A DNA stretch of 64,000 nucleotides from Spartobacteria bacterium. GTDB lineage: Bacteria > Verrucomicrobiota > Verrucomicrobiia > Chthoniobacterales > UBA10450. The notes under the pieces are model-generated. The model was not told the origin of the DNA. It did no database searches and saw only the letters and a list, made by a program, of their open reading frames with translations. The translations under genes and the position numbers were made by a program. This document shows positions 50,788 to 63,640 of this stretch, in pieces; the first letter of the stretch is position 1; each line of letters starts with the position of its first letter. The stretch is from NCBI GenBank assembly GCA_003169975.1, contig PNAA01000059.1:1-64000 (forward strand), read 5' to 3'.

Positions 50788-51690
50788 CTACCGGTCCTGA
50801 GTTCGACGCCGTTCTGAAGATTGTTTTGGCGGGGCCGCCACCGTGACGCAGCGCGAAGCGCGAGGCCGGGCTCCCGCTTCTTTGCGGAGACGCTGCAGCA
50901 GTGGTTTCAGTTCGGGATAGATCGGCAGGTAAAACCGTGCGCCGGTTTTATGGCGCCGGACGCTGATCCGTTCCCGCTTCCAGTCCACATCTGCCCACGT
51001 CACCGAAGCCGCTTCTGCCTGCCCCACGCCGGCAAGGCCCAGGAACTGGATGAAGTCGGCGCTCTGCGAGGCGTGATCGGTGAGGCGTTGCGAGCGGACC
51101 GATTCAACGATTGCACGAAACTGCTCAACGGTGGGAACCAGTCGAACCGGCTCCTGCGGCTTCTTCCACTTCGTCCGCACGTTGGCAAAGGGCGACTCCG
51201 CGATGATGCCGTCGCGCACTCCGATGTCGAGCAGCGCGTTCAGAAATCCGGTGTAGCGATTGTAGCTGGTGTTCTTCAGCCGCTTCTCGTGAATCGCCAG
51301 CCATTCCTCCAGGTGCGACGAGCGGACCTGCCGCACCTCCACCTCCATTGCGCAAGGAAAGCTGCGCTCCATCTGGCGGATGATCGATGCATTGGTTGCA
51401 CGCGTCTTGGCAGACTTGCCCTGGTTAACCGCCACGAATTTCTCGATCACTTCACGCAATGTGGTCTTCTCCAGCCCCTGATGAACGATCTGAAGATTCC
51501 TGATCCACTCCCGCAGCCGCCGCTCCGCGATCTTGCGATCGGTGGTGCGTAGCGAGCATTCCCTGCGCTTTCCCCGCAGCTTCTTCGCGCCGTAATAGCG
51601 CCCCGACAGTGAATGGCGATAGAGGCCGGGGAAGTTGCCAGCCTTGATGTAATGCGGCTGCGTTTTGCCCGCAGAATTGTTGGTTACCAT
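50788..51690 (-). pseudogene. Tyrosine recombinase/integrase, degenerate and C-terminally truncated
   Basis: 300-residue frame. The N-terminal arm-binding and core-binding (SAM-like) domains are intact (TLREVIEKFVAVNQGKSAKTRATNASIIRQMERSF; SHLEEWLAIHEKRLKNTSYNRYTGFLNALLDIGVRDGII). The catalytic domain starts (SADFIQFLGLAGVGQAEAASVTWADVDWKRERISVRRHKTGARFYLPIYPELKPLL), but the first catalytic Arg position reads GVGQAEA. The protein then ends in unrelated sequence (RPRASRCVTVAAPPKQSSERRRTQDR) before the HxxR and Tyr motifs. It must have lost about 100 residues by frameshift or deletion. Marks the left side of the accessory region. Confidence 0.8.
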
Positions 51691-51830: not shown

Positions 51831-52046
51831 CGGACAGTAACGGACTGATGTGGTCTCTACGTTTGCTGAAAATATTTTGCCGAACCATCCCTTGGCCGGG
51901 ATGTCGACGCCAATTTGAGCATTGACAGGAATCGGCACGATCCCTCAATCTGGCCCCGCCAAATAGATCTGGATCTGGCGCGGACGCTTATCCTGAGGGC
52001 TCCACCCTTCTTTCAGAGCTGTAGTTGCGGGCAAACTACCAGGTAA
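51831..52046 (+). ncRNA. Shared 5' leader, copy A (candidate structured RNA)
   Basis: Copy A of a conserved leader also present at 56975-57186 (B) and 61464-61556 (C). The part from about 51960 is common to all three: AAATAGATCTGGATCTGGCG, then hairpin 1 (AGGG-CTCCA-CCCT, 51996-52008), TTTCAGA, hairpin 2 around 52019-52031, then GGCAAACTACCA. Hairpin 1 reads GGGG...CCCC in B and C, an A-T to G-C exchange that keeps pairing. The upstream half (GGACAGT-ACGGAC-GATGTGGTCT) is shared only with B. It ends just before a gene for an exported dockerin-like protein. It could be a riboswitch-like RNA or a common regulatory region. Confidence 0.5.
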
Positions 52047-52058
52047 ATGGAAACGTCT

Positions 52059-53249
52059 ATGAAAAATCCAACTTCGCAGAAAATCACCCTGACGGCGATG
52101 GCTTTGGTTGCTTCGCTCGTGCTCAATGCGCAAGCCGGACGGCCAACCACAACACCGACTCCATCCGGTGCCCTTTGGTACAATGGCGACTTTAACGGGG
52201 TCAACGCCATCCCCAACGAGGAGGACACCAGCCTCGGGCCAGGCCAATTCGCCAGCGTCTACGATGATTTTATCGTGACGGACCCGAGCGGATGGGTTGT
52301 GACCTCTGTATTCTCTGATAATCTTTCGAGCACCAATGTTACCGGTGCAATCTGGGAAGTCCGACAAGGCGTCTCCGAAGGCAACCCCGGCACGCTCATT
52401 GCCGCCGGCGTGACCCTAACGCCCAACGTGACGGCGACGGGTCGCTCGGGCTTCGGTTATAACGAATACGAAGTCGAGGTTACCGGCTTGAGCGTCTTTC
52501 TGCCACCTGGGATGTATTGGCTTAATGTTACGCCGATTGGCGACCTGACGGGGCTTTCGTTTGATGGGACGACCAGCGGCGCCAATGCCGTGGGTATGCC
52601 TCCGGGCAACGACCAAAACGCCTTCATTAACAGCAACTTCTTTGGCTTCGTCTTTACCTCCACCGCCAATCTTGGCTTACCCTACGACTTCTCCATGGGT
52701 GTGAGAGGCACCGTCTCTGAGGGTTGCGACCTCGTGCTGGTGAGCGCGACCTCAAGGAAGACTCACGGCAGCAAAGGAGCATTCGACATCAGTTTGCCGC
52801 TTACCGGCAATGTTGGAATCGAATGCCGCACCGGGCTGACGAGGAACACGGTCGTGTATACGTTCAACAACGCAGTGACTGGCGCCGACAGCGCGAGCAC
52901 TTCGTGCGGAACGATCGGTAGCGTTTCCGTGGATCCAGCCGATGCGTACAACCTGCTCGTGACCTACAACGGCGCGGCCTGCAACGGCTCGACCGTTACG
53001 GTCACCGCCAACTATGTGCATTGCGATGGGGGCGGCACACTCAGTTCCGCCTCGGCGAGCATGGGCATATTGGTCGGTGACGTCACCGGCGACGGTAGGG
53101 TCACGAACGGCGACACCGCGCAAGTCCAGTCTGTCCAAGGTCAACAGACCAACAGCTCGAACTTCCGCGATGATGTGACGCTGGACGGAAAGATCAACAC
53201 TCAGGACATGCAAACGGTGAGGTCGCACAGAGGCGATGTCCTGCCGTAA
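52059..53249 (+). CDS. Exported protein with C-terminal dockerin-like module
   Basis: About 396 residues from ATG 52059 (or 400 from ATG 52047). Signal peptide KITLTAMALVASLVLNAQAG, then a Gly/Thr/Asn-rich beta domain (about 30-225), then a ~100-residue module starting SATSRKTHGSKGAFDISLPL, then two EF-hand-like dockerin repeats: GDVTGDGRVTNGDTAQVQS and DDVTLDGKINTQDMQTVRS. The last ~170 residues and their DNA are nearly identical to the end of the Kelch fragment at 55691-56619. Dockerin repeats bind calcium and, in cellulosomes, cohesin; no cohesin is recognisable here. The leader upstream is shared with two other exported-protein genes. Confidence 0.8.
   Translation: MKNPTSQKITLTAMALVASLVLNAQAGRPTTTPTPSGALWYNGDFNGVNAIPNEEDTSLGPGQFASVYDDFIVTDPSGWVVTSVFSDNLSSTNVTGAIWEVRQGVSEGNPGTLIAAGVTLTPNVTATGRSGFGYNEYEVEVTGLSVFLPPGMYWLNVTPIGDLTGLSFDGTTSGANAVGMPPGNDQNAFINSNFFGFVFTSTANLGLPYDFSMGVRGTVSEGCDLVLVSATSRKTHGSKGAFDISLPLTGNVGIECRTGLTRNTVVYTFNNAVTGADSASTSCGTIGSVSVDPADAYNLLVTYNGAACNGSTVTVTANYVHCDGGGTLSSASASMGILVGDVTGDGRVTNGDTAQVQSVQGQQTNSSNFRDDVTLDGKINTQDMQTVRSHRGDVLP
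52731..53249 (+). repeat. Dockerin-containing C-terminal module, copy 1
   Basis: About 520 bases nearly identical to 56100-56619, including silent positions, with the same ending (GTGAGGTCGCACAGAGGCGA then CCTGCCGTAAT). The module encodes the last ~170 residues of two otherwise unrelated proteins. Confidence 0.85.
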
Positions 53250-53337
53250 TAGAGAACACATAATCGGGATTGATGGCCTCGCTATCAAGTCGAACTGAAT
53301 TTCGCCATAGTAGCGCGTGTGCCGTAGTTGCGATGCC

Positions 53338-53745
53338 ATGCAAAAGCAAGAAGACCAGGCGACCATAGATGAAGCAAAGCGGGCGACTGAATATCTCGCT
53401 AATGAGCGTACGTTTTTGGCGTGGATCAGGACAAGCATTGCGGTCATCAGCCTCGGCTTTGTGGTGGCTAAATTCAGTGTCTGGCTGCGCGAGTTGTCGA
53501 CGCATCTGGATCCACAGATGCAGGCACATCACCCGGGAGTTTCGCTGCCATTAGGCGTGGCGATGATGACTTTTGGCGGCCTGCTCGCCTTACTGGCGGC
53601 GTGGCGTTATCACGTGGTAAATCGCGACATCGAGCGCGGCAAAGTGAGCGCCGATCGTGGACTTGTGATATTGGTCACGGTGATGGTCACGGTGCTTTCT
53701 GGAGCGATGATCGTTTTTCTCCTGCTGACGGCGAACCAACCGTAG
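53338..53745 (+). CDS. DUF202/YidH-like membrane protein
   Basis: 135 residues. The N-terminal EYLANERTFLAWIRTSIAVISLGFVVAKF is the DUF202 signature (NERTFLAWxRT), followed by two more hydrophobic helices (LGVAMMTFGGLLALLAAWRYH and LVILVTVMVTVLSGAMIVFLLL). Three-helix inner-membrane protein of unknown function. Start ATG 53338 chosen over an in-frame upstream start with a Cys-rich prefix. Confidence 0.85.
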   Translation: MQKQEDQATIDEAKRATEYLANERTFLAWIRTSIAVISLGFVVAKFSVWLRELSTHLDPQMQAHHPGVSLPLGVAMMTFGGLLALLAAWRYHVVNRDIERGKVSADRGLVILVTVMVTVLSGAMIVFLLLTANQP

Positions 53746-54590
53746 GCGCACCAGAGGTAGCCAGTCGTTTTCACTTAGTGGCTCCCGCTCCACCTCGGCA
53801 CCTTTTCCCTCGTATGGAGGCTAGGAGAATAGGCACGGTCGATCTTGAAATCATTCAAAACCTTGACTTGGACGGACAGAAGTGGACTCCTCGAAAACTG
53901 TCGGGGAGCAAAACGGGCGGACCCACATTCTTAGAATGGGCTGTGATCTCTCAAGTTAAGTCTCAGCGGCAGAGTGACTTGAGGTGGCATAGCTCAGTTG
54001 GTAGAGCGTTTCGTTCGCAATGAGATTGGGTCAATATTCCCATTTTCTCCCAAACGATCTGACGTGCTCATACCTCTGAAAAAGCCTTGAAGGGCCGTTC
54101 GCCACTTGCTCCAAAATGATCCCAATTATATTGGTCGGTGGATAAAACGGTGGATAAAGGGAGTCCGCCCGAGTTTCCGTCCTCTTCTTCGGGCCCCCCT
54201 TAATTTTCTTCGCGGTATGGCGGGCTTCCGGCAAGTGGGATAAAGGAAGTTCGACCTCATGGGAAGCAACGGCCTCCTGGGCTCGTTTCTTTTCGGGCGC
54301 TCCGACTTGCCCATTGCATCGCCTATCACGCTTCGCCGCGAGCAGGGCGAGCTTCATATCGTCATTCTGGTCGGGATACCGCCCACTAAATCCTAAATAT
54401 CAGATTACATTTCGCAATTACCCTTGTTCTTGCTTTGAGGCCGCACGCCTCTCTGCTTTCCTAGCGATGTTCGATGCAACGGGCGCATTCAACCAGCGCT
54501 CCGATGGCCTCTTTCCGGCAAATGTCTATGGCTTGGCGGATCTTAGGTTGAAGTGCTCGGCAGCTGGCTCGGAAACTCTCTCTAGTAATT
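53746..54590. other. Long region with tRNA fragment and no convincing gene
   Basis: About 845 bases between DUF202 and the next exported protein. It holds the tRNA-like fragment at 53983-54025 and a direct repeat GGTGGATAAA at about 54134 and 54147. A minus-strand frame at 54031-54357 (108 residues, Arg/Lys/Pro-rich) has no recognised family and may be a remnant. The frames on both strands otherwise look like shadows. Confidence 0.45.
53983..54025 (+). pseudogene. 5' half of a tRNA (Ala-like, anticodon CGC)
   Basis: GGTGGCA (acceptor 5' strand), TA, D-arm GCTC-AGTTGGTA-GAGC, then anticodon arm TTTCG-TTCGCAA-TGAGA with anticodon CGC in a correct 7-base loop (T33, A37). After this the sequence does not form a T-arm, and the downstream bases cannot pair with the acceptor strand. 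The gene therefore breaks off after the anticodon arm. Such half-tRNAs are typical of integrase attachment-site scars; an integrase remnant lies 2.3 kb to the left. Confidence 0.6.
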
Positions 54591-55664
54591 ATGGTAGCTC
54601 TAGCAAGACCTCGCTCCCTATCACTTCGCCGTTCATGCACCTGGTGGGTATCCGTTCTCTGCGCGCTCCCGGCTTTGGCCTCAGCTCAAGTTCCGCGTGG
54701 GGTCTTTTCCCTCTCCAACTCTGGAAAGGCGTGCAGCGACACGGTGCTGGCGAATCCTGATGTGACCGGGGTCAGCATCCGGTATGCATGGGCCGACCTC
54801 GAGCCAACAGAACGCGTCTATAATTGGAGCTTTCTCGACTCGGAAGTCGCGCGGGTGGCAGCCGCGGGAAAGGAGGCCCTGCTCCGCATCGGTACCCAGG
54901 CCGACAAACCGACCTGGGTGACAACGGCTGTTCAACAGGCCGGCGGCACTTTCTTTACCTTTCAGAATGGCAGCGTAACCACGACCATTCCGGTTTTCTG
55001 GGACCCCACTTACCTGGCCAAAAAGAAGGCCATGATCGCCGCCTTGGGAGCGCATTTTACTAACAACCCGGCGGTGACAATCGTGACGGCCAGCTTTGCC
55101 AACGCCATCAGCGAGGATTGGAGCGTCCCCCATACACCGCCGGACGTCATCAATTGGTTCGCCGTCGGCTACACCTCGCAGAAGATGCTCCATGCCGGTC
55201 AACAAATCATCGACGCCGCCATGGCAGCCTTTCCGAATCAATACGTCGCCCTGGCGATTGCGGGCGATGGACATGTGGGAGCGACGGGCAATCTCGATCC
55301 GACTGCGACCTATGTCGCAACAAACGCGATCGCCACTGCCGACACTTCGTGGCCTGGGCGATTGATCGTGCAGATCAACAGTCTTTCGACCTTTAACCCG
55401 GTGGCGCCGGGCCCGGTCAATTCAGCCTGGAATCTGCTCTGGAGTAGCCAGCCCAACGTCGGCGGGCAAATGGTTTATCAGTGTGAAAATGATCCTACCT
55501 ACCGGGTCAACGGCGGCGTGCCGATCGATCCCGCGACCGCCTTGACGCTTTCGGTCAACAAGGGCGTGAGTTATGGAATGAATTATATCGAAATTTACCA
55601 GATCGATGTCATTGGTCTGCCAGCGGTCATTACCTACGCACGCACCGCCCTGGGTGCATTGTAG
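54591..55664 (+). CDS. Exported glycoside-hydrolase-like TIM-barrel protein
   Basis: 357 residues. Signal peptide with CTWWVSVLCALPALASAQ. The mature part begins with PRGVFSLSNSGKACSDTVLANPDVTGVSIRYAWADLEPTERVYNWSFLDSEVARVAAAGKEALLRIGTQADKPTWV, the beta-alpha start of GH42/GH5-type barrels (W-x-D-L-E-P and a Y-N-W-x-x-L-D segment). A later SFANAISEDWSVPHTPPD may hold the acid/base Glu, and GMNYIEIYQIDV near the end the nucleophile, but neither is certain. Probably secreted and acting on a polysaccharide; substrate unknown. A broken Kelch gene follows directly. Confidence 0.65.
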   Translation: MVALARPRSLSLRRSCTWWVSVLCALPALASAQVPRGVFSLSNSGKACSDTVLANPDVTGVSIRYAWADLEPTERVYNWSFLDSEVARVAAAGKEALLRIGTQADKPTWVTTAVQQAGGTFFTFQNGSVTTTIPVFWDPTYLAKKKAMIAALGAHFTNNPAVTIVTASFANAISEDWSVPHTPPDVINWFAVGYTSQKMLHAGQQIIDAAMAAFPNQYVALAIAGDGHVGATGNLDPTATYVATNAIATADTSWPGRLIVQINSLSTFNPVAPGPVNSAWNLLWSSQPNVGGQMVYQCENDPTYRVNGGVPIDPATALTLSVNKGVSYGMNYIEIYQIDVIGLPAVITYARTALGAL

Positions 55665-55690
55665 CTGCAATTTGCGAAAGGCCGACTGCG

Positions 55691-56619
55691 GTGGTGGTCC
55701 TCGTGGCTCAGCCTCCAGTTTTACTATTGGGAGCAAGGGATATGTAGGAATTGGAGGTAATAACGGCATAGAGAAAAAGGATTTCTGGGAGTTCGACCCT
55801 GTTGGGAACACTTGGACACAGAAGGCCGACTTCGGGGGAACAGCAAGAGAACAAGCAACACAATTTGCCATAGGCATCAAAGGATATATTGGCACGGGTT
55901 ACGATGGTAGTACCTGGACAAGTGATTTCTGGGAATATGATCCTTCCTCGAATACCTGGACGCAGAAAGCTGAGTTTGGGGGGACAGCGAGATATGATGG
56001 AATCGGATTTTCCGTCGGCGGCAAAGGATATATAGGAACGGGCTACAACGGAACTTATCTTAACGATTTCTGGGAATACAGTCCTGACGGCGGTAGCGAC
56101 CTCACCCTGACGAGCGCAGCTTCGAGAAAAACCCACGGTGCCAAGGGAGCATTTGACATCAGTTTGCCGCTTAGCGGAAATGTTGGAATCGAATGCCGCA
56201 CCGGGCTGACGAGAAATGTGGTCGTGATGACGTTCAATAACAACGTGACCGGCGCGGACAGCGCCAGCTCCAGCGGTGGCACGGTCGGCAGCGTTTCCGT
56301 GGATCCAGCTGATGCGCACAACCTGCTCGTGACCTTCAACGGCGCCGCCTGCAACGGCTCGACCGTGACGGTCACCGCCAACAATGTGCATTGCGATCAG
56401 GGCAACACACTCAGTTCCGCCTCGGCGAGCATGGGCATATTGGTCGGTGACGTGACCGGCGACGGTAGGGTCACGAACGGCGACACAGCGGCAGTCCGAG
56501 CGGTCCAGGGGCAACAGACCAACGCTTCCAACTTCCGCGATGATGTGACGCTGGACGGCAAGATCAACACTCAGGACGTGCAAACGGTGAGGTCGCACAG
56601 AGGCGACGTCCTGCCGTAA
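55691..56619 (+). pseudogene. Kelch-repeat plus dockerin-module protein, 5'-truncated
   Basis: Open frame without a plausible start: the only ATG (55606) lies inside the preceding gene in another frame, and no signal peptide is present. From about 55691 the sequence is Kelch/galactose-oxidase-like: KGYVGIGGNNGIEKKDFWEFDPVGNTWTQKADFGG, then two more blades of the same form with GTGYDG and GTGYNG. The blades are followed by the ~170-residue module with two dockerin repeats that is nearly identical to 52731-53249. Three blades remain out of the expected five to seven, so the N-terminal part was lost by deletion or recombination next to the glycosidase gene. Confidence 0.72.
56100..56619 (+). repeat. 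Dockerin-containing C-terminal module, copy 2
   Basis: Second copy of the module at 52731-53249. Differences include CNGSTVTVTANNVHCDQGN against CNGSTVTVTANYVHCDGGG and NGDTAAVRAVQGQQTNASN against NGDTAQVQSVQGQQTNSSN. The rest is largely unchanged. Confidence 0.85.
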
Positions 56620-56640
56620 TTAGAAAGGGGGGCCGAATTT

Positions 56641-56978
56641 TCGACCCGGGCTTGCTCGGGAGGGGTAATACTCCCCGGGGTGGTCACCCCACCCCCCCTC
56701 CTTTGGATTACCCCGCCTGCCTTGCGATTAAAGGAGAGTCTCAGCGACTAAATCTCGGCGGTGGGTCCTACCCGCGAGGGGTGAGGGAATGGGGTTCTCG
56801 GTGCAGGTGTTCTTTTCGACCCGGGCTCTCCCGGGAGGGGTCATGCCCCCGGGGGTTGGTCACCCCCACCCCCCTCCTTTGGATTACCCGCCTGCCTTGC
56901 GATTAAAAGGAGTGGCCAACGACTCAATTTCTCGGTGGGGTCATACCCGCGAGAGTGACGGAATGGGCGTTCTCCGGA
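56641..56978. repeat. Tandem direct repeat, two units of about 175 bases
   Basis: Units start TCGACCCGGGCT at 56641 and 56816. Each contains a GC-rich inverted repeat (CCCGGGCT..CGGGAGGGG), a C-rich run, CCTCCTTTGGATTACC, GCCTGCCTTGCGATTAAA and a final TACCCGCGAG block. Unit 2 has a few insertions. No coding potential. The units lie between the truncated Kelch gene and leader copy B. Confidence 0.8.
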
Positions 56979-57186
56979 CAGTGACGGACCGATGTGGTCT
57001 GTTCGCCCGCCGAAAATATTTTCACGAATCGTCTATTAGGCCGCCTGTGGGCGCTGATTTTAGGCATTGACAAGGATCGCCACGATCCCTCAATCTGGCG
57101 CCGTCAAATAGATCTGGAGCTGGCGCAGACGCTTATCCTGGGGCTTCTCCCCCACTTTCAGACCTGCAGTCGTAGGCAAATCACCA
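56975..57186 (+). ncRNA. Shared 5' leader, copy B (candidate structured RNA)
   Basis: Copy B of the leader. Its upstream half (CGGACAGTGACGGACCGATGTGG) matches copy A. The common 3' half has TCAAATAGATCTGGAGCTGG, hairpin 1 (GGGG-CTTCT-CCCC), TTTCAGA and hairpin 2 (CCTGC-AGTC-GTAGG), in which the second-strand C of copy C (GCAGG) is T, giving G-U pairing. It ends with GGCAAATCACCAAGGAAA, 24 bases before the ATG at 57210, which opens two short frames and then an exported beta-propeller gene. Confidence 0.5.
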
Positions 57187-57209
57187 AGGAAAAAAGAAAC
57201 CCAATCCCT

Positions 57210-57379
57210 ATGTATTCCATAAATAAAACCAGAACCGTTACCCAAATAAAATGAAATCACTCCCAGACAGCTTCGTTTTCCTCCCTCGACTTCTTCTCTG
57301 CCTGGTTCCTTCCCTTTCTCGCGCTCGTGTCGGCCCGAGCTTTTCAGTTAACAACCCTCAACCGGGAACCAGCCCCTAA
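57210..57379 (+). CDS. Two overlapping leader-peptide-like short frames
   Basis: Frame 1 (57210-57254) encodes MYSINKTRTVTQIK and its TGA overlaps the ATG of frame 2 (57251-57379), MKSLPDSFVFLPRLLLCLVPSLSRARVGPSFSVNNPQPGTSP. Frame 2 begins like a signal peptide. Its TAA is 4 bases before the ATG at 57384, in frame with the propeller protein. These may be leader peptides, or the 5' remains of another exported protein. Either explanation is inference. Confidence 0.35.
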
Positions 57380-57443
57380 AATTATGAAAACCTATATGTA
57401 CGAACCGATTCAGATCAAACCTAAAATTCAGCCTCAAGAAAAA

Positions 57444-58343
57444 ATGAAAACTACAATAAGAACTATATGGAAAAGCCTCCTGGTGGTATTTCTGGGAATG
57501 CTGTTGGTAGGACAAGCCCACGGGCAAATCTATGTGGTCAATCAAGGCAGTGGAGCGGTGGGCGAATACAAGCTGGATGGAATACCGATCAACACCTCAT
57601 TGATCACAGTAAGCATAGGTCCGAACGAGCCTACTGGCATAGCGCTGTCCGGGAATACCCTCTACGTAATAGGGGGTCAGAGCGGCACCAATAGCACTGT
57701 TGGCACATATAACGCCACGACTGGAGCTGTGATCAATCCCTTACTAGTTACCCAGTCCCAACTTCCCGAATCGGTGGCAATTTCTGGAAATAATCTTTAC
57801 GTGGTAAGCGCCGGCGGAAGCGGACAGGGGACCGGTTTTGTTGGCGTCTACGACGCGACGACAGGGGCTCCGATAAGTGTTCCGCTGCTTTCGGGATTGG
57901 TTTACCCGTTGGGCGTCGCATTGTCCGGGAATCATCTATATCTGCCACAGGAGCTGTTCGGTACTTTTGGAGAAATAAACGTCTACAACGCCACGACAGG
58001 AGCTCCACTCGCCTCGCCGCTTGTCTCGGGATTGCTGAACTCCCCAGCGGGTTTGGCGATATCGGGGAATATGTTATTTGAGGCCAACTTCTATGGCGGG
58101 AACATAGGGAAATACGACGCCACGACGGGCGCGGTCATCAATGCTTCATTTATCAGCGGACTGAGTAACCCTACTCAATTGGCGGTGCTTGGGAATTACT
58201 TGTTCGTTACGAATTACGGTAACGGCACAATCGGAGAATACGATGCCACAACCGGAGCCACCATTAACGCATCCTTGATCAGCGGTCTCAGCCAGCCGTG
58301 GGGCATCGCTGTGAGGCACCGAAGGAATAAAAAGGCGTTCTAG
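57444..58343 (+). CDS. Exported NHL/YVTN-type beta-propeller protein
   Basis: 299 residues from ATG 57444 (319 from ATG 57384). Signal peptide MKTTIRTIWKSLLVVFLGMLLVGQAHGQ. The mature protein is made of ~45-residue repeats: IYVVNQGSGAVGEYKLDG, then GTYNATTGAVINPLL, GVYDATTGAPISVPLLSGL, VYNATTGAPLASPLVSGL, KYDATTGAVINASFISGL and EYDATTGATINASLISGL, each followed by a variant of LAxSGNxLYV. Such propellers occur in Verrucomicrobia next to PEP-CTERM sorting; here the C-terminus (IAVRHRRNKKAF) is a short basic tail without a sorting signal. Preceded by leader copy B. Confidence 0.75.
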   Translation: MKTTIRTIWKSLLVVFLGMLLVGQAHGQIYVVNQGSGAVGEYKLDGIPINTSLITVSIGPNEPTGIALSGNTLYVIGGQSGTNSTVGTYNATTGAVINPLLVTQSQLPESVAISGNNLYVVSAGGSGQGTGFVGVYDATTGAPISVPLLSGLVYPLGVALSGNHLYLPQELFGTFGEINVYNATTGAPLASPLVSGLLNSPAGLAISGNMLFEANFYGGNIGKYDATTGAVINASFISGLSNPTQLAVLGNYLFVTNYGNGTIGEYDATTGATINASLISGLSQPWGIAVRHRRNKKAF

Positions 58344-58707
58344 CTATACCTACGGTTTACCAGAGTGGCTTTAAATCGCTGGGCGCGGGGGTCGTCCTAA
58401 CTCCTAACCCCACCCTCTTTGTTTTTGGGGTAGTGGTCGTTCTCGCAACTCACCACCGTTAAGCGACTTCCTATGAGACTGATAATTGAGCCTAACGAAT
58501 TCGCACTGTTTTGCACAGCGTTGCAGAATCGCATTTCACGAGGGAAGAATGGCGCGGAATCGTTGCGCAGCTTTGCAAGGTTTTGCATCAAGAAATCGTC
58601 CGACCGTAGAAAACGACCGTAGAACTTTTCAGCGACGGCGCGAATGCAGCTCAGCCCCGCCTGAATGCAATCGACTGCGCCGCCCGATGAAGCGCGACGC
58701 GCGCCCG
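58344..58707. other. Intergenic region, no gene recognised
   Basis: 364 bases between the propeller gene and a convergent phage-like gene. It contains the only TCGTTAGGC motif (58490-58498 on the minus strand) found to the right of 51.8 kb, and a possible CCCCA...TGGGG hairpin near 58406-58431. Nothing else was identified. Confidence 0.4.
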
Positions 58708-59163
58708 TTAGTCTGGATTTTCAGCTTGGAATGCCATTCGGCCCGCCATGATGTTGAATGTGACAGGCCCGCTTGCAGGCGGCTGATTCTCCAATCCGTA
58801 GTTGCGCCTCGCAACGGAATCAATTCGCTCCAGATTGCGGGCGCTGTTCAGAATCTCACCCGGCTCCATTGCTTCCAAGTGCGGTAGAACCTTCTCTGTG
58901 ATGCCCGCTATTCGCGCAACGTGCCGCTCTGCACGCGCCTGCATCGTCAGGGCAGCTGCGTCACAGGCCGGCACGATTGCGGACTCTACCGGCTTCGCCA
59001 TGCTCTTTGCAGCCTCGATGCGCGGTGTCCACTGCTCGCGGCTTGCTCGGGCGAGGACGGTGCCTTCAGGTATGCCCATGTTTCGGGCGATCTCGCGCAA
59101 TCGGATGCCGGTGGTGTATGCGATGCGGATCTCCGCCCAGGTTGCTGTGGGGATGCGATTCAT
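58708..59163 (-). CDS. HTH protein, possibly phage-terminase-small-subunit-like
   Basis: 151 residues. The N-terminal helix-turn-helix is ATWAEIRIAYTTGIRLREIARNMGIPEGTVLARASREQWT, similar to the HTH of small terminase subunits and resolvase-like regulators. The middle (ARAERHVARIAGITEKVLPHLEAMEPGEILNSARNLERIDSVARRNYGLEN) is helical. No large terminase, portal or capsid gene is nearby, so it is likely an isolated mobile-element or plasmid-derived gene. Confidence 0.6.
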   Translation of the reverse strand: MNRIPTATWAEIRIAYTTGIRLREIARNMGIPEGTVLARASREQWTPRIEAAKSMAKPVESAIVPACDAAALTMQARAERHVARIAGITEKVLPHLEAMEPGEILNSARNLERIDSVARRNYGLENQPPASGPVTFNIMAGRMAFQAENPD

Positions 59164-59385
59164 GTTCGATGGAACGTAGCGACCGCGGGCGTGATTGCAA
59201 AGCGCAGATATTAGCGGCGCAGGTGAAATCGAGACTGAACCCTGCGCCGATCTGACGGAAATTGGAAACGATCAGCGGTTGATCGAAAGCTCCCCGTCAT
59301 GCGTGATGGTTACGCTGCCGTCGTGCTCCACGCCTAGCTTGCGTAGTTAGGCGTTGCGGCTATCCACGAGACGGTAGCCATAGGT

Positions 59386-59661
59386 TCATTGTGTTTGGAG
59401 TGCCGACGGGCTTTGGGTTTTCACCACCGGCGGCGGATTCCATTTGCCGGTGAGCGCGTCTGACTTCGGGCCGTAGAGACGCATGCACACGTTGAACGCT
59501 CCTTTGGGTGCAGGCAGCCAGTTGGCTTCCTTGCCTTTGCCGGGGCTTTCATTCTGGAAATAGAGGTCCAGCGAACCGTCCGCATTGGTCTTGAACGGCA
59601 TCCAACTGCTCACCGCGAAACGATTGAGCACGTTCGCCACCTGGAAGCCATCGCTGTTGCT
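59386..59661 (-). pseudogene. DUF1214 C-terminal fragment
   Basis: Minus-strand segment with RFAVSSWMPFKTNADGSLDLYFQNESPGKGKEANWLPAPKGAFNVCMRLYGPKSDALTGKWNPPPVVK, which matches the end of DUF1254/DUF1214 proteins almost word for word. Those proteins are ~450 residues, so about 80% of the gene is missing. The upstream ~25 codons of the frame (to 59724) are not family sequence. The break lies near 59650, close to a GTTGGACGTT repeat unit at 59703. Confidence 0.75.
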
Positions 59662-59745
59662 CCGGCCCGCTACTCCCATTCGTATCTGGCGCACCTGGCC
59701 GAGTTGGACGTTTAATCTTGACACAAACGGCCACTAAAGAGTGCA

Positions 59746-60891
59746 ATGCCCACCGTGAAAATACTGCATTCCCTGGTCTCCAGTCTTCGACCGGCTAACT
59801 CGGTTCTCGCGCGGCGGCTCGCGTTCCCGCTGCTTCTTCTCGGTGCGGCGCTGGCGGTCGTGCAGCCGTGCGCGGGCCTTTCCTTTGAATTTCAGGAGAC
59901 CGGCAGCCAGGCCATGCCGCACCCTAATGCACCGGCGACATTATTGGCCAACGGTCAGGCCCTCATCGCGGGTGGAGATGGCCCCATTGCGGACGCGGAA
60001 CTTTACACTCCGACAACCGGAACCTGGTCCGCCACCGGCGGTCTCAACGCTGCACGCTCCTATCACACAGCCACTTTGCTACCTAATGGGCAAGTGCTCG
60101 TGGCAGGAGGGTTTGATAGCGACATTCTACTCACAATGACGGAACTCTACGATCCGACAACCGGAACCTGGTCCGCGACTGGCGACCTCGCCAGAGGGCG
60201 GTTTTTCCACACGGCGACACTCCTGGACGATGGCAGGGTGCTTGTTGCAGGCGGAATAGGCGACGCTGGCTTGAATATCCGGAGCGCGGAACTCTACGAT
60301 CCTGTGACGGGCACCTGGACGACAACCGGCCAGTTAAACCGCGCACGTCAAAACCATACCGCGACCCTGCTGTCCGACGGCAGGGTGCTCGTGGTAGGCG
60401 GACTCAACGACAGCAGCCTTAGCATCTCAAGCGTGGAAATCTACGACCCGGCGAGCGGGACTTGGTCAACGACCTCCCCTCTCCCCGAGGAGCGCGGCCT
60501 TCATTCGGCAACATTGCTGCAAAACGGCATGGTTTTGGTAGCAGGCGGGTACTCGAATTCTGGCCCCCTCGCGCGTGCGGACCTCTATGATCCAGCGAGC
60601 GGGACCTGGTCGCCCACCGGCGCGCTTCCCGTTGAAGTCTTCCTTCACGCGGCGACGTTATTGCCGAACGGTGCAGTCTTGGCCACCGGGGGGACGGTGG
60701 GCGCCGCTGCCTATTCCACGGACGCGGAAATTTACGATCCAAGAAACGGAACCTGGACCGCCACCGGCAGCCTCAATGTTGGACGCCGTGATCACACCTC
60801 CATCTTGCTCCGCAAGGGCAAGGTGCTGATAGTAGGCGGGCAATCCGCTGACAGCGCAAGCACAGAACTCGGCCTTCGTGTCCGGCAATAG
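59746..60891 (+). CDS. Exported Kelch-repeat protein
   Basis: 381 residues. Signal peptide around RRLAFPLLLLGAALAVVQPCAG, then six to seven Kelch-like blades of ~48 residues: TATLLPNGQVLVAGGF...TELYDPTTGTWSATGDLARGRFFH, TATLLDDGRVLVAGGI, TATLLSDGRVLVVGGL, SATLLQNGMVLVAGGY, AATLLPNGAVLATGGT and SILLRKGKVLIVGGQ. The blades have the double-Gly and Tyr-x6-Trp pattern and should close to a beta-propeller as in galactose oxidase, but no copper-site residues were identified. No sorting signal at the C-terminus. Probably secreted. Confidence 0.82.
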   Translation: MPTVKILHSLVSSLRPANSVLARRLAFPLLLLGAALAVVQPCAGLSFEFQETGSQAMPHPNAPATLLANGQALIAGGDGPIADAELYTPTTGTWSATGGLNAARSYHTATLLPNGQVLVAGGFDSDILLTMTELYDPTTGTWSATGDLARGRFFHTATLLDDGRVLVAGGIGDAGLNIRSAELYDPVTGTWTTTGQLNRARQNHTATLLSDGRVLVVGGLNDSSLSISSVEIYDPASGTWSTTSPLPEERGLHSATLLQNGMVLVAGGYSNSGPLARADLYDPASGTWSPTGALPVEVFLHAATLLPNGAVLATGGTVGAAAYSTDAEIYDPRNGTWTATGSLNVGRRDHTSILLRKGKVLIVGGQSADSASTELGLRVRQ

Positions 60892-60947
60892 GGATGCCAA
60901 TGACTTTTGGCCGGTGAGCAAATTCGTTCTGGGAATGCAAAGTCGGG

Positions 60948-61220
60948 TCACCGCTTGGGCGTTGCGTCCATCAGTCGCTCCCATTCGCCAAGATTTCCAC
61001 GAAAACCCAAGTCACAGGCGGTTTGCCAGGAGAGGCGGGCCGCGGTGTCACGCCGTTTGCCGCTCTTGGTGTCGGGCATACTGCGATAATGGCGTCTAGA
61101 GACGAAGATGTGGACTGCCAGCGGGTCCTGTTCGGTGCGCATCTCCTGCAGCACACCTTCCACCTCACGAATCGCCGCACCAAGGTTTTCCAAGGCGCGC
61201 TGTAGTGTGCGGGATTGCAT
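60948..61220 (-). CDS. Small protein under a LexA-like operator
   Basis: 90 residues, no family recognised. N-terminal coiled-coil-like helix (TLQRALENLGAAIREVEGVLQEMRTEQDPLAVHIF), then a basic region (RRHYRSMPDTKSGKRRDTAARLSWQTACDLGFRGNLGEWERLMDA). The ATG at 61220 is 4 bases downstream of a perfect TGTTC-N4-GAACA palindrome (61224-61237), the LexA operator reported for Verrucomicrobia. SOS-regulated expression is therefore likely, and that supports a real gene. A role in DNA damage or in a mobile element is inference. Confidence 0.5.
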   Translation of the reverse strand: MQSRTLQRALENLGAAIREVEGVLQEMRTEQDPLAVHIFVSRRHYRSMPDTKSGKRRDTAARLSWQTACDLGFRGNLGEWERLMDATPKR

Positions 61221-61223
61221 TGA

Positions 61224-61237
61224 TGTTCAATCGAACA
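61224..61237. promoter_or_regulatory. LexA-type operator
   Basis: TGTTCAATCGAACA, a perfect match to the Verrucomicrobia LexA motif TGTTC-N4-GAACA. It lies directly upstream of the minus-strand small gene. No other exact copy was found in the window. Confidence 0.6.
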
Positions 61238-61463
61238 TATCCCCGACGCGAGGTCAAAGATGCGCCGCGGTGATCATCGACTGTCGGGGCCGATACCCAC
61301 AAGTCGGCAGCGATTAAGAAGATCACCAACTGCGGCCAAACCGGAGCGGACCGTGCCGCCATCTGGCACGAAATCCACCAGGGCGGGCTGTTTGTCTTGC
61401 TCCGAGGCAGCTTTTCGTTCTTGAAGATTTGTCTCGACAAGCTGAAGGCGAACGGGGCAATCT

Positions 61464-61556
61464 AGTGCCGTCGAATAGATCTGGATCTGGCGCGGACGTT
61501 TATTCTTGGGGGCTTCTTCCCCTCTTTCAGACCTGCAGTCGCAGGCAAAATTACCA
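61464..61556 (+). ncRNA. Shared 5' leader, copy C (candidate structured RNA)
   Basis: Copy C, the shortest. TCGAATAGATCTGGATCTGG, hairpin 1 (GGGG-CTTCTT-CCCC), TTTCAGA, hairpin 2 (CCTGC-AGTC-GCAGG, fully paired), then GGCAAAATTACCAAGTGAAA, followed by AAACGTCTATG as in copy A. The upstream half present in A and B is missing, which marks the 3' half as the conserved core. It precedes a repeat-rich exported protein at 61574. Confidence 0.5.
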
Positions 61557-61573
61557 AGTGAAAGCAAACGTCT

Positions 61574-63640
61574 ATGAGAAAACAATCAGCTGCATGCAAA
61601 TCGGGCACGCTCCCGCGCTTCTTTCGAGCCACATGCATCACTGGGCTTCTGCCGGCGCTGGTCTTGTTGCTCAGCATTCAATCCAGCTTTGCCGGGAGCG
61701 CCACCTGGCTGGCAACTCCTGCCACCGGGGACTGGAACACGGCCGCCAATTGGACGGCAGGTGGCCCGCCCAATGGGTCCGCGGACACAGCAACATTCGC
61801 CGTATCCAATACAAATGGCGTCTCTCTCTCGGCCACCGCCGAGGTCAATCGCACCGTGTTCAACTCGGGCGCGAGCCCGTTTACGATCACCGCCAGCCCT
61901 ACGTTTGCCTTGATCATCAGCGGTGCAGGCATCACGAACAATTCCGCAATCGCACAGAACTTTGTGACTGGTGTGGACGGCGCAGGCGAAATAGGGCAGA
62001 TCATATTCGCGAACAGCGCAACCGCCGGGAGCCAGACTGTTTTCACCAACGCGGGTAGTACGATCGGCAATCTACAGCAAGGCGGTACGATGGTGTTCCA
62101 GGACAGCTCGAGCGCTGGCGACGCGATCGTAACCAATCTCGGCGGCGCGGCCGCTGGCGCGCGCGGCGGCGTGATTGAATTCGATAACACCTCGACTGCA
62201 GGCAACGCCCAGGTTACCCTCAATGGCGGCGTGGGCAGCGCGTCCGAAGGCGGGTTCGTTTTCTTCCATGACTCCGCCACCGCCGGCAATGGCACCTTTC
62301 TCGCCCAAGGCGGCGCACCCGGAGCATTTGGTGCCTGGGTCTTTTTCGATGGGAACTCAAACGCGGGCAATGGGACGTTCGTCGCCAACGGCGCACTTAG
62401 TGTTGTGTATATCGGAGGAGCAGCCAGCGCCGCCAACGGTAACTTCACCAATGACGGCGGACCAGCCACCGGCGCCGGTCAGGGCGGTCAAACGAGTCTC
62501 GATGCAGACGCGACCGGGGGGAACGCGACTTTTACGACCAATGGCGCCCCGGTTGCCGGCGGCCTCCCCGGCTATATGGGGGTCAATAACACCTCTACCG
62601 CGGGTAACGCCACCTTCACGGTCAATGGCGGAGCAGTTAGCGGGGCAGCCGGGGGCCTCCTTCAGTTTATCGATTACATGGGTTTGGTTGGCGCCCCAAC
62701 CGCGGCTAATGCCACGATCACGGTTAACGGCGGCGAAGTTAGCGGCGCAGCTGCGGGCCTCCTCCAGTTCACCAATAGCTCGACTGCAGAGAACGCCACT
62801 CTGGTCGCCAACGGCGGAGCCGGTGGTGGCGACGGCGGTAAAATCCAGTTTACTGTTGATTCTACCGGCGGTGCTGCGCTCGTGACGGTTTCCGGCAACG
62901 GCAATCTCGACATCAGCGGCCACAATACTCCGGGCGTGACGATTGGCTCGATCGAAGGCAGCGGCCTTGTCTTCTTGGGGGCTAACAAACTTACCATTGG
63001 CAGCAACAACCTAAGCACCGCTTTTTCCGGAACGACCCAGGACGGTGGCCTGAATGGTGGCACGGGCGGCTCACTGACGAAAATCGGCAAGGGCAAACTA
63101 ACTCTGAGCACGGCGAGCACCTACACTGGAGGCACCACCGTTAGCAAAGGCACACTCCTGGTCACAAATAAAACCGGCTCCGCCACAGGCAGAGGGACCG
63201 TGCTGGTCAACGCCGGGACACTCGGCGGAACCGGCAAGATCTCCGGCGCGGTTACTGTCGCGTCGGGAGCTACCCCTGCGGCACTGGCGCCTGGGAGTGG
63301 CAGCAAACCCGGCACACTAACCGTGCTGAGCACTCTGGCGTTCGGTTCCCATGCCACTTATAAAGTGGATTTGAACAGCAGCACCGTCAAAGCCGATCGA
63401 ATCATCGCCAAGGGCGTGACCATCAGCAGCGGCGCTCTGGTTTCGATTGGTGACCTCGGCAGCAGCATGCTGCCGAGCGGCACGGTCTTTACCGTAATCA
63501 ACAATACCGCCGCAACCCCGATCGCCGGGACCTTTAGCAACCTTGCCGATAACTCTACGTTAACTGTCGGCAGTAACACCTACCTCGTGAACTACGAAGG
63601 CGGCGACGGGAATGATCTGACGCTGAGTGTCGTGCCGTAG
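61574..63640 (+). CDS. Exported autotransporter-associated beta-strand repeat protein
   Basis: 688 residues. Signal peptide around CITGLLPALVLLLSIQSSFAG. Residues about 40-450 form short Gly/Ala/Asn/Thr repeats with the core STAGNATFTVNGG (variants SAGDAIVTNLGG, STAGNAQVTLNGG, SATAGNGTFLAQGG), typical of parallel beta-helices. A PF12951-type segment follows: GSLTKIGKGKLTLSTASTYTGGTTVSKGTLLV, then LVNAGTLGGTGKISGAVTVASGA and a C-terminal GNDLTLSVVP. No outer-membrane beta-barrel is present, so it is not a classical autotransporter. Probably a long surface fibre or adhesin. Preceded by leader copy C. Confidence 0.82.
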   Translation: MRKQSAACKSGTLPRFFRATCITGLLPALVLLLSIQSSFAGSATWLATPATGDWNTAANWTAGGPPNGSADTATFAVSNTNGVSLSATAEVNRTVFNSGASPFTITASPTFALIISGAGITNNSAIAQNFVTGVDGAGEIGQIIFANSATAGSQTVFTNAGSTIGNLQQGGTMVFQDSSSAGDAIVTNLGGAAAGARGGVIEFDNTSTAGNAQVTLNGGVGSASEGGFVFFHDSATAGNGTFLAQGGAPGAFGAWVFFDGNSNAGNGTFVANGALSVVYIGGAASAANGNFTNDGGPATGAGQGGQTSLDADATGGNATFTTNGAPVAGGLPGYMGVNNTSTAGNATFTVNGGAVSGAAGGLLQFIDYMGLVGAPTAANATITVNGGEVSGAAAGLLQFTNSSTAENATLVANGGAGGGDGGKIQFTVDSTGGAALVTVSGNGNLDISGHNTPGVTIGSIEGSGLVFLGANKLTIGSNNLSTAFSGTTQDGGLNGGTGGSLTKIGKGKLTLSTASTYTGGTTVSKGTLLVTNKTGSATGRGTVLVNAGTLGGTGKISGAVTVASGATPAALAPGSGSKPGTLTVLSTLAFGSHATYKVDLNSSTVKADRIIAKGVTISSGALVSIGDLGSSMLPSGTVFTVINNTAATPIAGTFSNLADNSTLTVGSNTYLVNYEGGDGNDLTLSVVP

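Follow-up and report, generated by a model that had tools for sequence, protein, structure and literature searches.

The window analysed here, a stretch of 64,000 nucleotides taken at its full length, carries three copies of a leader element on the forward strand, each preceded by a predicted promoter. The preliminary description had proposed three copies of a shared core, and all three proved to be real: they match the R2 covariance model (CM) at 51961-52051, 57106-57197 and 61473-61566 with 69-83 bits (E-values of 1e-16 to 2e-20), and the R2 search of the window gave no match besides these. The copies, their parts and the genes behind them are as follows.

51922..51951, +, predicted promoter of copy 1: -35 TTGACA (51922-51927) and -10 CAATCT (51946-51951), from the sequence and the family-wide -35 pattern
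51961..52051, +, copy 1 of the leader RNA element (CM match; R2 69.3 bits, E 1.2e-16)
51965..51973, +, copy 1 box 1, AGAUCUGGA, 5′ strand of stem P1; near-invariant columns, pairs with box 2
51992..51995, +, copy 1 S2, CCUG, one side of the pseudoknot helix; its partner is 52040-52043, and the pairing covaries across the family
52011..52020, +, copy 1 box 2, UUUCAGAGCU, 3′ strand of P1; anti-Shine-Dalgarno-like
52019..52030, +, copy 1 P3 hairpin (hairpin 2 of the preliminary description); conserved, covariation weak (p=0.20)
52040..52043, +, copy 1 S3, CAGG, 3′ side of the pseudoknot helix; adjoins the ribosome-binding region
52059..53249, +, exported protein with a C-terminal dockerin-type module (ORF; Dockerin_1 among downstream proteins)
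57067..57096, +, predicted promoter of copy 2: TTGACA (57067-57072) and CAATCT (57091-57096), from sequence and family pattern
57106..57197, +, copy 2 of the leader RNA element (R2 78.6 bits, E 4e-19)
57110..57118, +, copy 2 box 1, paired with box 2
57137..57141, +, copy 2 S2, strand CCUGG; pairs with 57184-57189
57156..57165, +, copy 2 box 2, UUUCAGACCU; pairs with box 1
57184..57189, +, copy 2 S3, strand CCAAGG, with one bulged A against S2 (from the sequence)
57210..57254, +, 14-codon remnant ORF after copy 2, MYSINKTRTVTQIK and a stop
57384..58343, +, beta-propeller-like exported protein, start at about 57384, some 195 bases past copy 2 (ORF, sequence)
61434..61463, +, predicted promoter of copy 3: TCGACA (61434-61439) and CAATCT (61458-61463), from sequence and family pattern
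61473..61566, +, copy 3 of the leader RNA element (R2 83.4 bits, E 2e-20)
61477..61485, +, copy 3 box 1, AGAUCUGGA
61505..61509, +, copy 3 S2, strand CUUGG; pairs with 61554-61558
61525..61534, +, copy 3 box 2, UUUCAGACCU
61554..61558, +, copy 3 S3, strand CCAAG
61574..63640, +, exported beta-strand-repeat (autotransporter-like) protein (ORF)

A position directly before exported-protein genes, as originally claimed for all copies, holds for copies 1 and 3, with start codons at 52059 (the likely start, a second in-frame ATG being present at 52047) and 61574, but not for copy 2, which is followed by the remnant ORF. Upstream of copies 1 and 2, about 125 bp are shared at 77% identity, a local duplication that was not seen at the other copies. 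In copy 3, S2 provides a compensated U-A pair at a place where most members of the genus have C-G, the paralogue L005 reading CCUGG/CCAGG.

The family of this element numbers at least about 150 members in 48-49 genomes, essentially all of them in the window's own family-level group of soil Chthoniobacterales. Matches were found in 45 of the 83 genomes of the window's family by the R1 search and in 48 of its genomes by the R2 search, and R2 gave no convincing match in the rest of the order or phylum. The window's genome has 13 copies, the leader connects as many as 17 genes in a genome, and tandem copies occur in L046. The products encoded downstream across the family are S74-type fibres, kelch propellers and collagen- or autotransporter-like exported proteins, and a signal-like N-terminus is found in 90 of the 96 ORFs downstream. 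Among the motifs that had been described as fixed, TTTCAGA is nearly invariant throughout the family, but GGCAAA and TACCA/CACCA are features of the window's genus.

The element has a constant position relative to promoters and start codons. A -35 box is found some 43 bases 5′ of the conserved core (-45 to -41 from box 1) and is present in the region -60 to -38 in 87 of 106 members, against 11.4 expected. Transcription would start about 8 bases 5′ of box 1, and from this predicted start the element would constitute the entire 5′ leader of its mRNA. On the other side, an ATG ORF follows in 96/106 members, with a modal AUG distance of 17-20 bases past the core and pseudoknot, a relation to start codons that, like the covariation described below, answers one of the refutation tests named in the preliminary description and favors an RNA. 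When located with the lineage's own 16S tail (GGATCACCTCCTTTCTA), the Shine-Dalgarno overlaps the pseudoknot or lies at most 3 bases away in 58 of 75 cases, and 4-7 bases beyond it in the other 17.

The covarying helices of the element are a long-range pseudoknot, S2:S3, in which an internal C-rich strand is paired with a purine strand touching the Shine-Dalgarno, and the stem P2. The latter sits above P1 (AGAUCUGRA:UUUCAGACCU), whose outer pair shows an A-U to G-C change and which is otherwise nearly invariant, so that covariation is unable to prove it. In a structure-blind MAFFT alignment, 80.5% of S2:S3 cells are paired, with changes on both sides in 7 of the 9 pairs, and 81.9% are paired for the structure as a whole compared to at most 54% when it is slid. 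An alignment-free test gave a mean of -14.4 kcal/mol for a member's own S2:S3 duplex versus -10.3 kcal/mol for swapped partners (z=-12.9, none of 1000 permutations being as low). Compensated, i.e. double-changed, pseudoknot cells numbered 164 as against 43±17 under a phylogenetic null (p at the floor of 0.0025), and P2 was likewise better paired than under this null (p=0.005). With the CM alignment and a per-column null, pairs 35-85 and 37-83 scored higher than any null value from 40 simulated alignments, and an earlier R-scape-like test on the MAFFT alignment gave no significant pair. As the fitting of the CM alignment had made use of the pseudoknot, the alignment-free test and the MAFFT count constitute the cleaner evidence for it.

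These results uphold the initial proposal of a structured RNA in the leader of exported-protein genes, but through S2:S3 and P2 rather than the two local hairpins on which it had been based, so that the structural model itself was largely wrong. Among 106 homologues, the paired fraction of hairpin 1 is 0.58, no better than the 0.59 of the phylogenetic null (p=0.60), and that of hairpin 2 is only marginally better (p=0.20), and the base changes across the three window copies are too few to show any covariation. Hairpin 2 corresponds to the weakly supported P3, which may be inserted before S3. Minimum-free-energy (MFE) folding of individual members in most cases did not beat that of shuffled sequences and gives no independent support for the structure, an outcome to be expected with a pseudoknot as the key helix. 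We also considered an alternative off state in which box 2, an anti-Shine-Dalgarno look-alike (CCUCUUUCAGA), would pair with the Shine-Dalgarno; own and swapped partners did not differ significantly (p=0.36), the pairing showed nothing more than generic complementarity, and this state was rejected.

As had been suspected, the element gave no match to a known riboswitch: no Rfam 15 family reached its gathering threshold in the window, and searching 16 member loci against Rfam at a relaxed E-value returned two chance sub-threshold hits, off the element or on the opposite strand. The TPP-riboswitch-like wording of GAUCUGGAUCUGGC is likewise without Rfam support. Ribosomal-protein leaders (e.g. 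S15, S4/alpha) exert translational control by a 5′ leader pseudoknot at the ribosome-binding site, as the present element is presumed to do, but they serve the regulator's own operon with one copy per genome, whereas the present leader precedes about a dozen unrelated exported-protein genes. HDV-like ribozymes agree with the leader in strand order (stem 5′, pseudoknot 5′, stem 3′, hairpin, pseudoknot 3′); however, P1 is variable in sequence in these ribozymes and nearly invariant in the leader, which has no consistent hairpin at the place of HDV P3 and no Rfam match, and this candidate was rejected. The c-di-GMP-I/II riboswitches (GEMM) resemble the present element in being leader RNAs with many copies, placed before genes for surface proteins and adhesins, but the element is without a match in Rfam, and the search for a GGDEF domain in the window's genome gave none, which implies that canonical c-di-GMP synthesis is lacking and argues against c-di-GMP. 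Another close parallel is the preQ1-II riboswitch (RF01054), an HLout pseudoknot (PMC11625349). Both are compact leader RNAs of narrow lineages in which a stem-loop pairs through its loop with a 3′ tail that includes the Shine-Dalgarno, with an additional hairpin before the tail strand (here the putative P3) and with translational control (here presumed). In contrast, the leader gave no RF01054 hit in the window or the 16 member loci, and it has other invariant bases, a longer P1/P2 stem, a Shine-Dalgarno often beside rather than inside the pseudoknot, and exported fibre proteins instead of queT transport as its targets. By analogy, the leader would work like preQ1-II in topology without being a member of that class, to which it is unrelated in sequence.

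Given a shape kept despite sequence change, a position at the ribosome-binding site and no match in Rfam, the element is probably an undescribed translational switch. We therefore favor, with some reserve, a new family of cis-acting leader RNAs in which a pseudoknot blocks ribosome binding and acts as a signal-dependent switch of exported-protein translation. The RNA would fold P1 from boxes 1 and 2 and then P2, leaving S2 in a large loop; S2 would pair with S3, which overlaps or touches the Shine-Dalgarno, in a loop-to-tail pseudoknot with P3 inserted before S3. Formation of S2:S3 would block the 30S subunit and lower translation, and opening or closing of the pseudoknot in response to a signal, be it a protein or a small ligand bound by invariant bases of P1 and the junction, would set expression. 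S2 might also alternate between S3 and an upstream strand, S1, a co-transcriptional S1:S2 hairpin being the open state; such bistability would not compete with the switch but be a possible working mode of it. The strands S1 and S2 are complementary in many members (e.g. AUCGGGcAGAAG/CUUCUCCCGAU in L052), the pairing is predicted by MFE in L052 and L045, and own S1:S2 partners are favored over swapped ones (p=0.001), but with a phylogenetic null p=0.16 and with S1 also forming P2, we regard this mode as doubtful.

Other explanations would do without a riboswitch or without an RNA. The leader could be an operator for a regulatory protein or a trans-acting sRNA governing a surface-protein regulon, which would fit the multiple copies before exported-protein genes, the lineage-restricted distribution, and invariant AGAUCUGRA and UUUCAGACCU strands that a protein could read. 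However, no candidate regulator was found, and the invariant strands are mutually complementary and so partly explained by structure alone; we see this as a possible but less likely reading. A constitutive leader, whose pseudoknot protects the mRNA 5′ end or fixes the translation rate without sensing, would be in line with downstream genes that have export rather than a pathway in common, with an element making up the full 5′ leader, and with the very stable average S2:S3 duplex. We find it unlikely, because the near-invariant bases across genera, some of them outside the covarying helices, exceed the needs of a structural plug, and because, of the genome's 11 S74 fibre genes, only 4 have the leader, which is thus not needed for their expression. 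Finally, a DNA-level cassette or mobile element end might be suggested by clustered copies sharing promoter and leader, by the tandem arrangement in L046 and by the duplicated DNA upstream of copies 1 and 2. This is largely refuted and highly improbable in view of the compensatory long-range changes, the fixed spacing to the AUG and the unrelated flanks of the copies: paralogue identity is 0.77 in the leader and about 0.6 on both flanks, falling close to background just outside the leader on either side, unlike a transposon end. The exact core pattern was not found in viral contigs either, and a phage origin was rejected on this one pattern, which does not cover diverged copies.

The translational-control leader RNA proposed here may possibly be a riboswitch. 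Its targets, being non-metabolic exported proteins, give no hint of a ligand, and a protein-bound or purely stabilizing leader would look alike. A new riboswitch class with an undescribed or unexpected signal, controlling an exported fibre/adhesin regulon in abundant soil Verrucomicrobiota without sign of c-di-GMP signalling, is a speculative and rather unlikely prospect. Chthoniobacterales are abundant in soil and hardly cultured, and the literature searched holds no description of how their many exported repeat and fibre proteins are controlled. The leader marks a regulon of such proteins by a defined RNA of about 95 bases and, should the leader prove to be a riboswitch, the ligand would uncover a surface-protein signal in a lineage without detected c-di-GMP synthesis.

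The three leader copies reported in the preliminary description are present in the window, and no further leader element occurs there:

51961-52051, + strand, leader element, copy 1
57106-57197, + strand, leader element, copy 2
61473-61566, + strand, leader element, copy 3

The placement directly before genes that was proposed for all of them holds for copies 1 and 3, where start codons (52059 and 61574) lie a few bases past the leader end, but not for copy 2, where a 14-codon remnant ORF comes next and the propeller gene starts about 195 bases further on. This ORF (57210-57254, MYSINKTRTVTQIK*), immediately 3′ of copy 2, is a remnant of the MYSxNKIIRTxSLIGAF N-terminus found after other copies, and the copy 2 leader now sits before a broken gene. 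Copies 1 and 2 have about 125 bp of upstream DNA in common (77% identity), absent elsewhere in the genome except for a weak 33-bp match. A putative tyrosine-recombinase-like ORF, recognized from sequence only, lies just upstream of copy 1 (50788-51690, - strand). ORFs 55606-56619 and 52059-53249 carry a common C-terminal module of ~170 aa (RKTHGAKGAFDISLPLSGNVGIECRTG...dockerin-like end), and only the latter has a leader directly before it.

Nucleotide search revealed 11-12 leader copies in this genome and more in relatives. The covariance model R1 raised this to 13 and matched 45 of 83 genomes of the same family, with up to 13 copies per genome. With a second model, R2, built from 60 diverged members, the leader turned up in 48 family genomes, with as many as 17 copies in a genome; of the several hundred other genomes searched outside the family, only two gave a match, each single and marginal. 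These searches uncovered a family rather than three copies alone, and, in line with the earlier view that no described riboswitch has this core, the leader matches no family in Rfam 15. Four member contigs are named, as MAGs of Chthoniobacterales, Spartobacteria and Verrucomicrobia; judging by their isolate labels (palsa, 30 cm depth), these probably come from soil. One locus, L046, carries tandem elements (1291-1386 and 1501-1594, 210 bp apart), with no ORF after the upstream one.

The 12 copies used from this genome share an identity of 0.77 across the leader and of 0.58-0.62 in both flanks, the latter near shuffled background; the conserved unit is the leader itself. A TTGACA-like box is found at -60 to -38 before box 1 (one strand of stem P1, the other being box 2) in 87 of 106 members versus 11.4 expected, sharply peaked at -45 to -41, and a CAAACT/CAATCT-like hexamer was seen by eye 17-18 bases past it; transcription is therefore expected to start about 8 bases upstream of the element. 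In 96/106 members there is an ATG ORF whose start lies within 45 bases, most commonly 17-20 bases past the pseudoknot strand.

In 60 members aligned with MAFFT without regard to structure, four helices were counted: P1, P2 above it, P3, and PK, which pairs a C-rich loop strand (S2) with a purine strand by the ribosome-binding site (S3). P1 is almost invariant (93.6% of cells paired), whereas two-sided changes occur in 5/5 pairs of P2 and 7/9 of PK, column pair 50-108 of PK being G-C in 27, C-G in 17 and A-U in 9 members. When the partners were shifted by one column, the paired share fell from 82% to at most 54%, and, independently of any alignment between partners, each member's own S2:S3 duplex was more stable by 4 kcal/mol than one formed with the partner strand of another member (z -12.9). 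Against a tree-based null keeping each column's substitution number, PK (p 0.0025) and P2 (p 0.005) both stand, these covariation p-values coming from a simplified in-house test, not R-scape; two PK pairs individually exceed every score of 40 null alignments. P1 is too invariant for judgement by this null, its outer pairs being suggestive (p 0.025). The two hairpins originally thought to covary did not withstand the same null: hairpin 1 was rejected (p 0.60), and hairpin 2, our P3, covaries at best weakly (p 0.20). P1/P2 close the loop that contains S2, and S3 follows 3′ of it, which gives a predicted loop-to-tail pseudoknot whose connecting strand carries P3 as an insertion. One clade has a U-to-C change that breaks a P3 pair and creates a P1 pair (G5-C62), which hints that P1 and P3 may compete for bases.

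The 16S end of the lineage is GGATCACCTCCTTTCTA, so that its Shine-Dalgarno is predicted to be AGAAAGGAGG. The best match to it (n=75) overlaps PK in 22 cases, is at most 3 bases away from PK in 36 and sits 4-7 bases past it in 17, and because of this proximity we infer that PK formation should hinder 30S loading. In sequence, box 2 (element columns 50-59, CCUCUUUCAGA) is similar to the 16S tail CCUCCUUUCUA and so looks like an internal anti-Shine-Dalgarno; comparison of own with swapped partners gave no support for its pairing with the Shine-Dalgarno. Among known systems, preQ1-II, whose HLout pseudoknot buries the Shine-Dalgarno (PMC11625349), comes nearest in architecture; membership was rejected because RF01054 gave no match. 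We found no description of Verrucomicrobia or Spartobacteria riboswitches or structured RNA in openly accessible journal papers, which is not proof of absence, and the RNA surveys checked mention neither group.

A signal-like hydrophobic stretch opens 90 of 96 downstream ORFs, versus 19 of the 42 long window ORFs that served as a crude baseline. The Peptidase_S74 fibre chaperone domain was present in 36 of 82 downstream proteins, and kelch, collagen, dockerin and enzyme domains in others. Only 4 of the 11 S74 genes in the genome have a leader, which therefore marks a subset of them. No GGDEF domain was found in the genome. At several loci (among them L022, L026, L030, L048 and L013) the fibre gene after the leader is short or apparently frame-shifted soon past the signal peptide, which may reflect decay, assembly error or phase variation.

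Several explanations of how the leader acts are mutually compatible, and the evidence ranks them only softly. It may form a constitutive plug, it may be an operator for a protein or sRNA, or it may be a bistable switch in which S2 pairs either with S1, the strand upstream of it, or with S3. The model we prefer is that of a signal-responsive pseudoknot leader, which would control the translation of exported proteins in answer to a signal.
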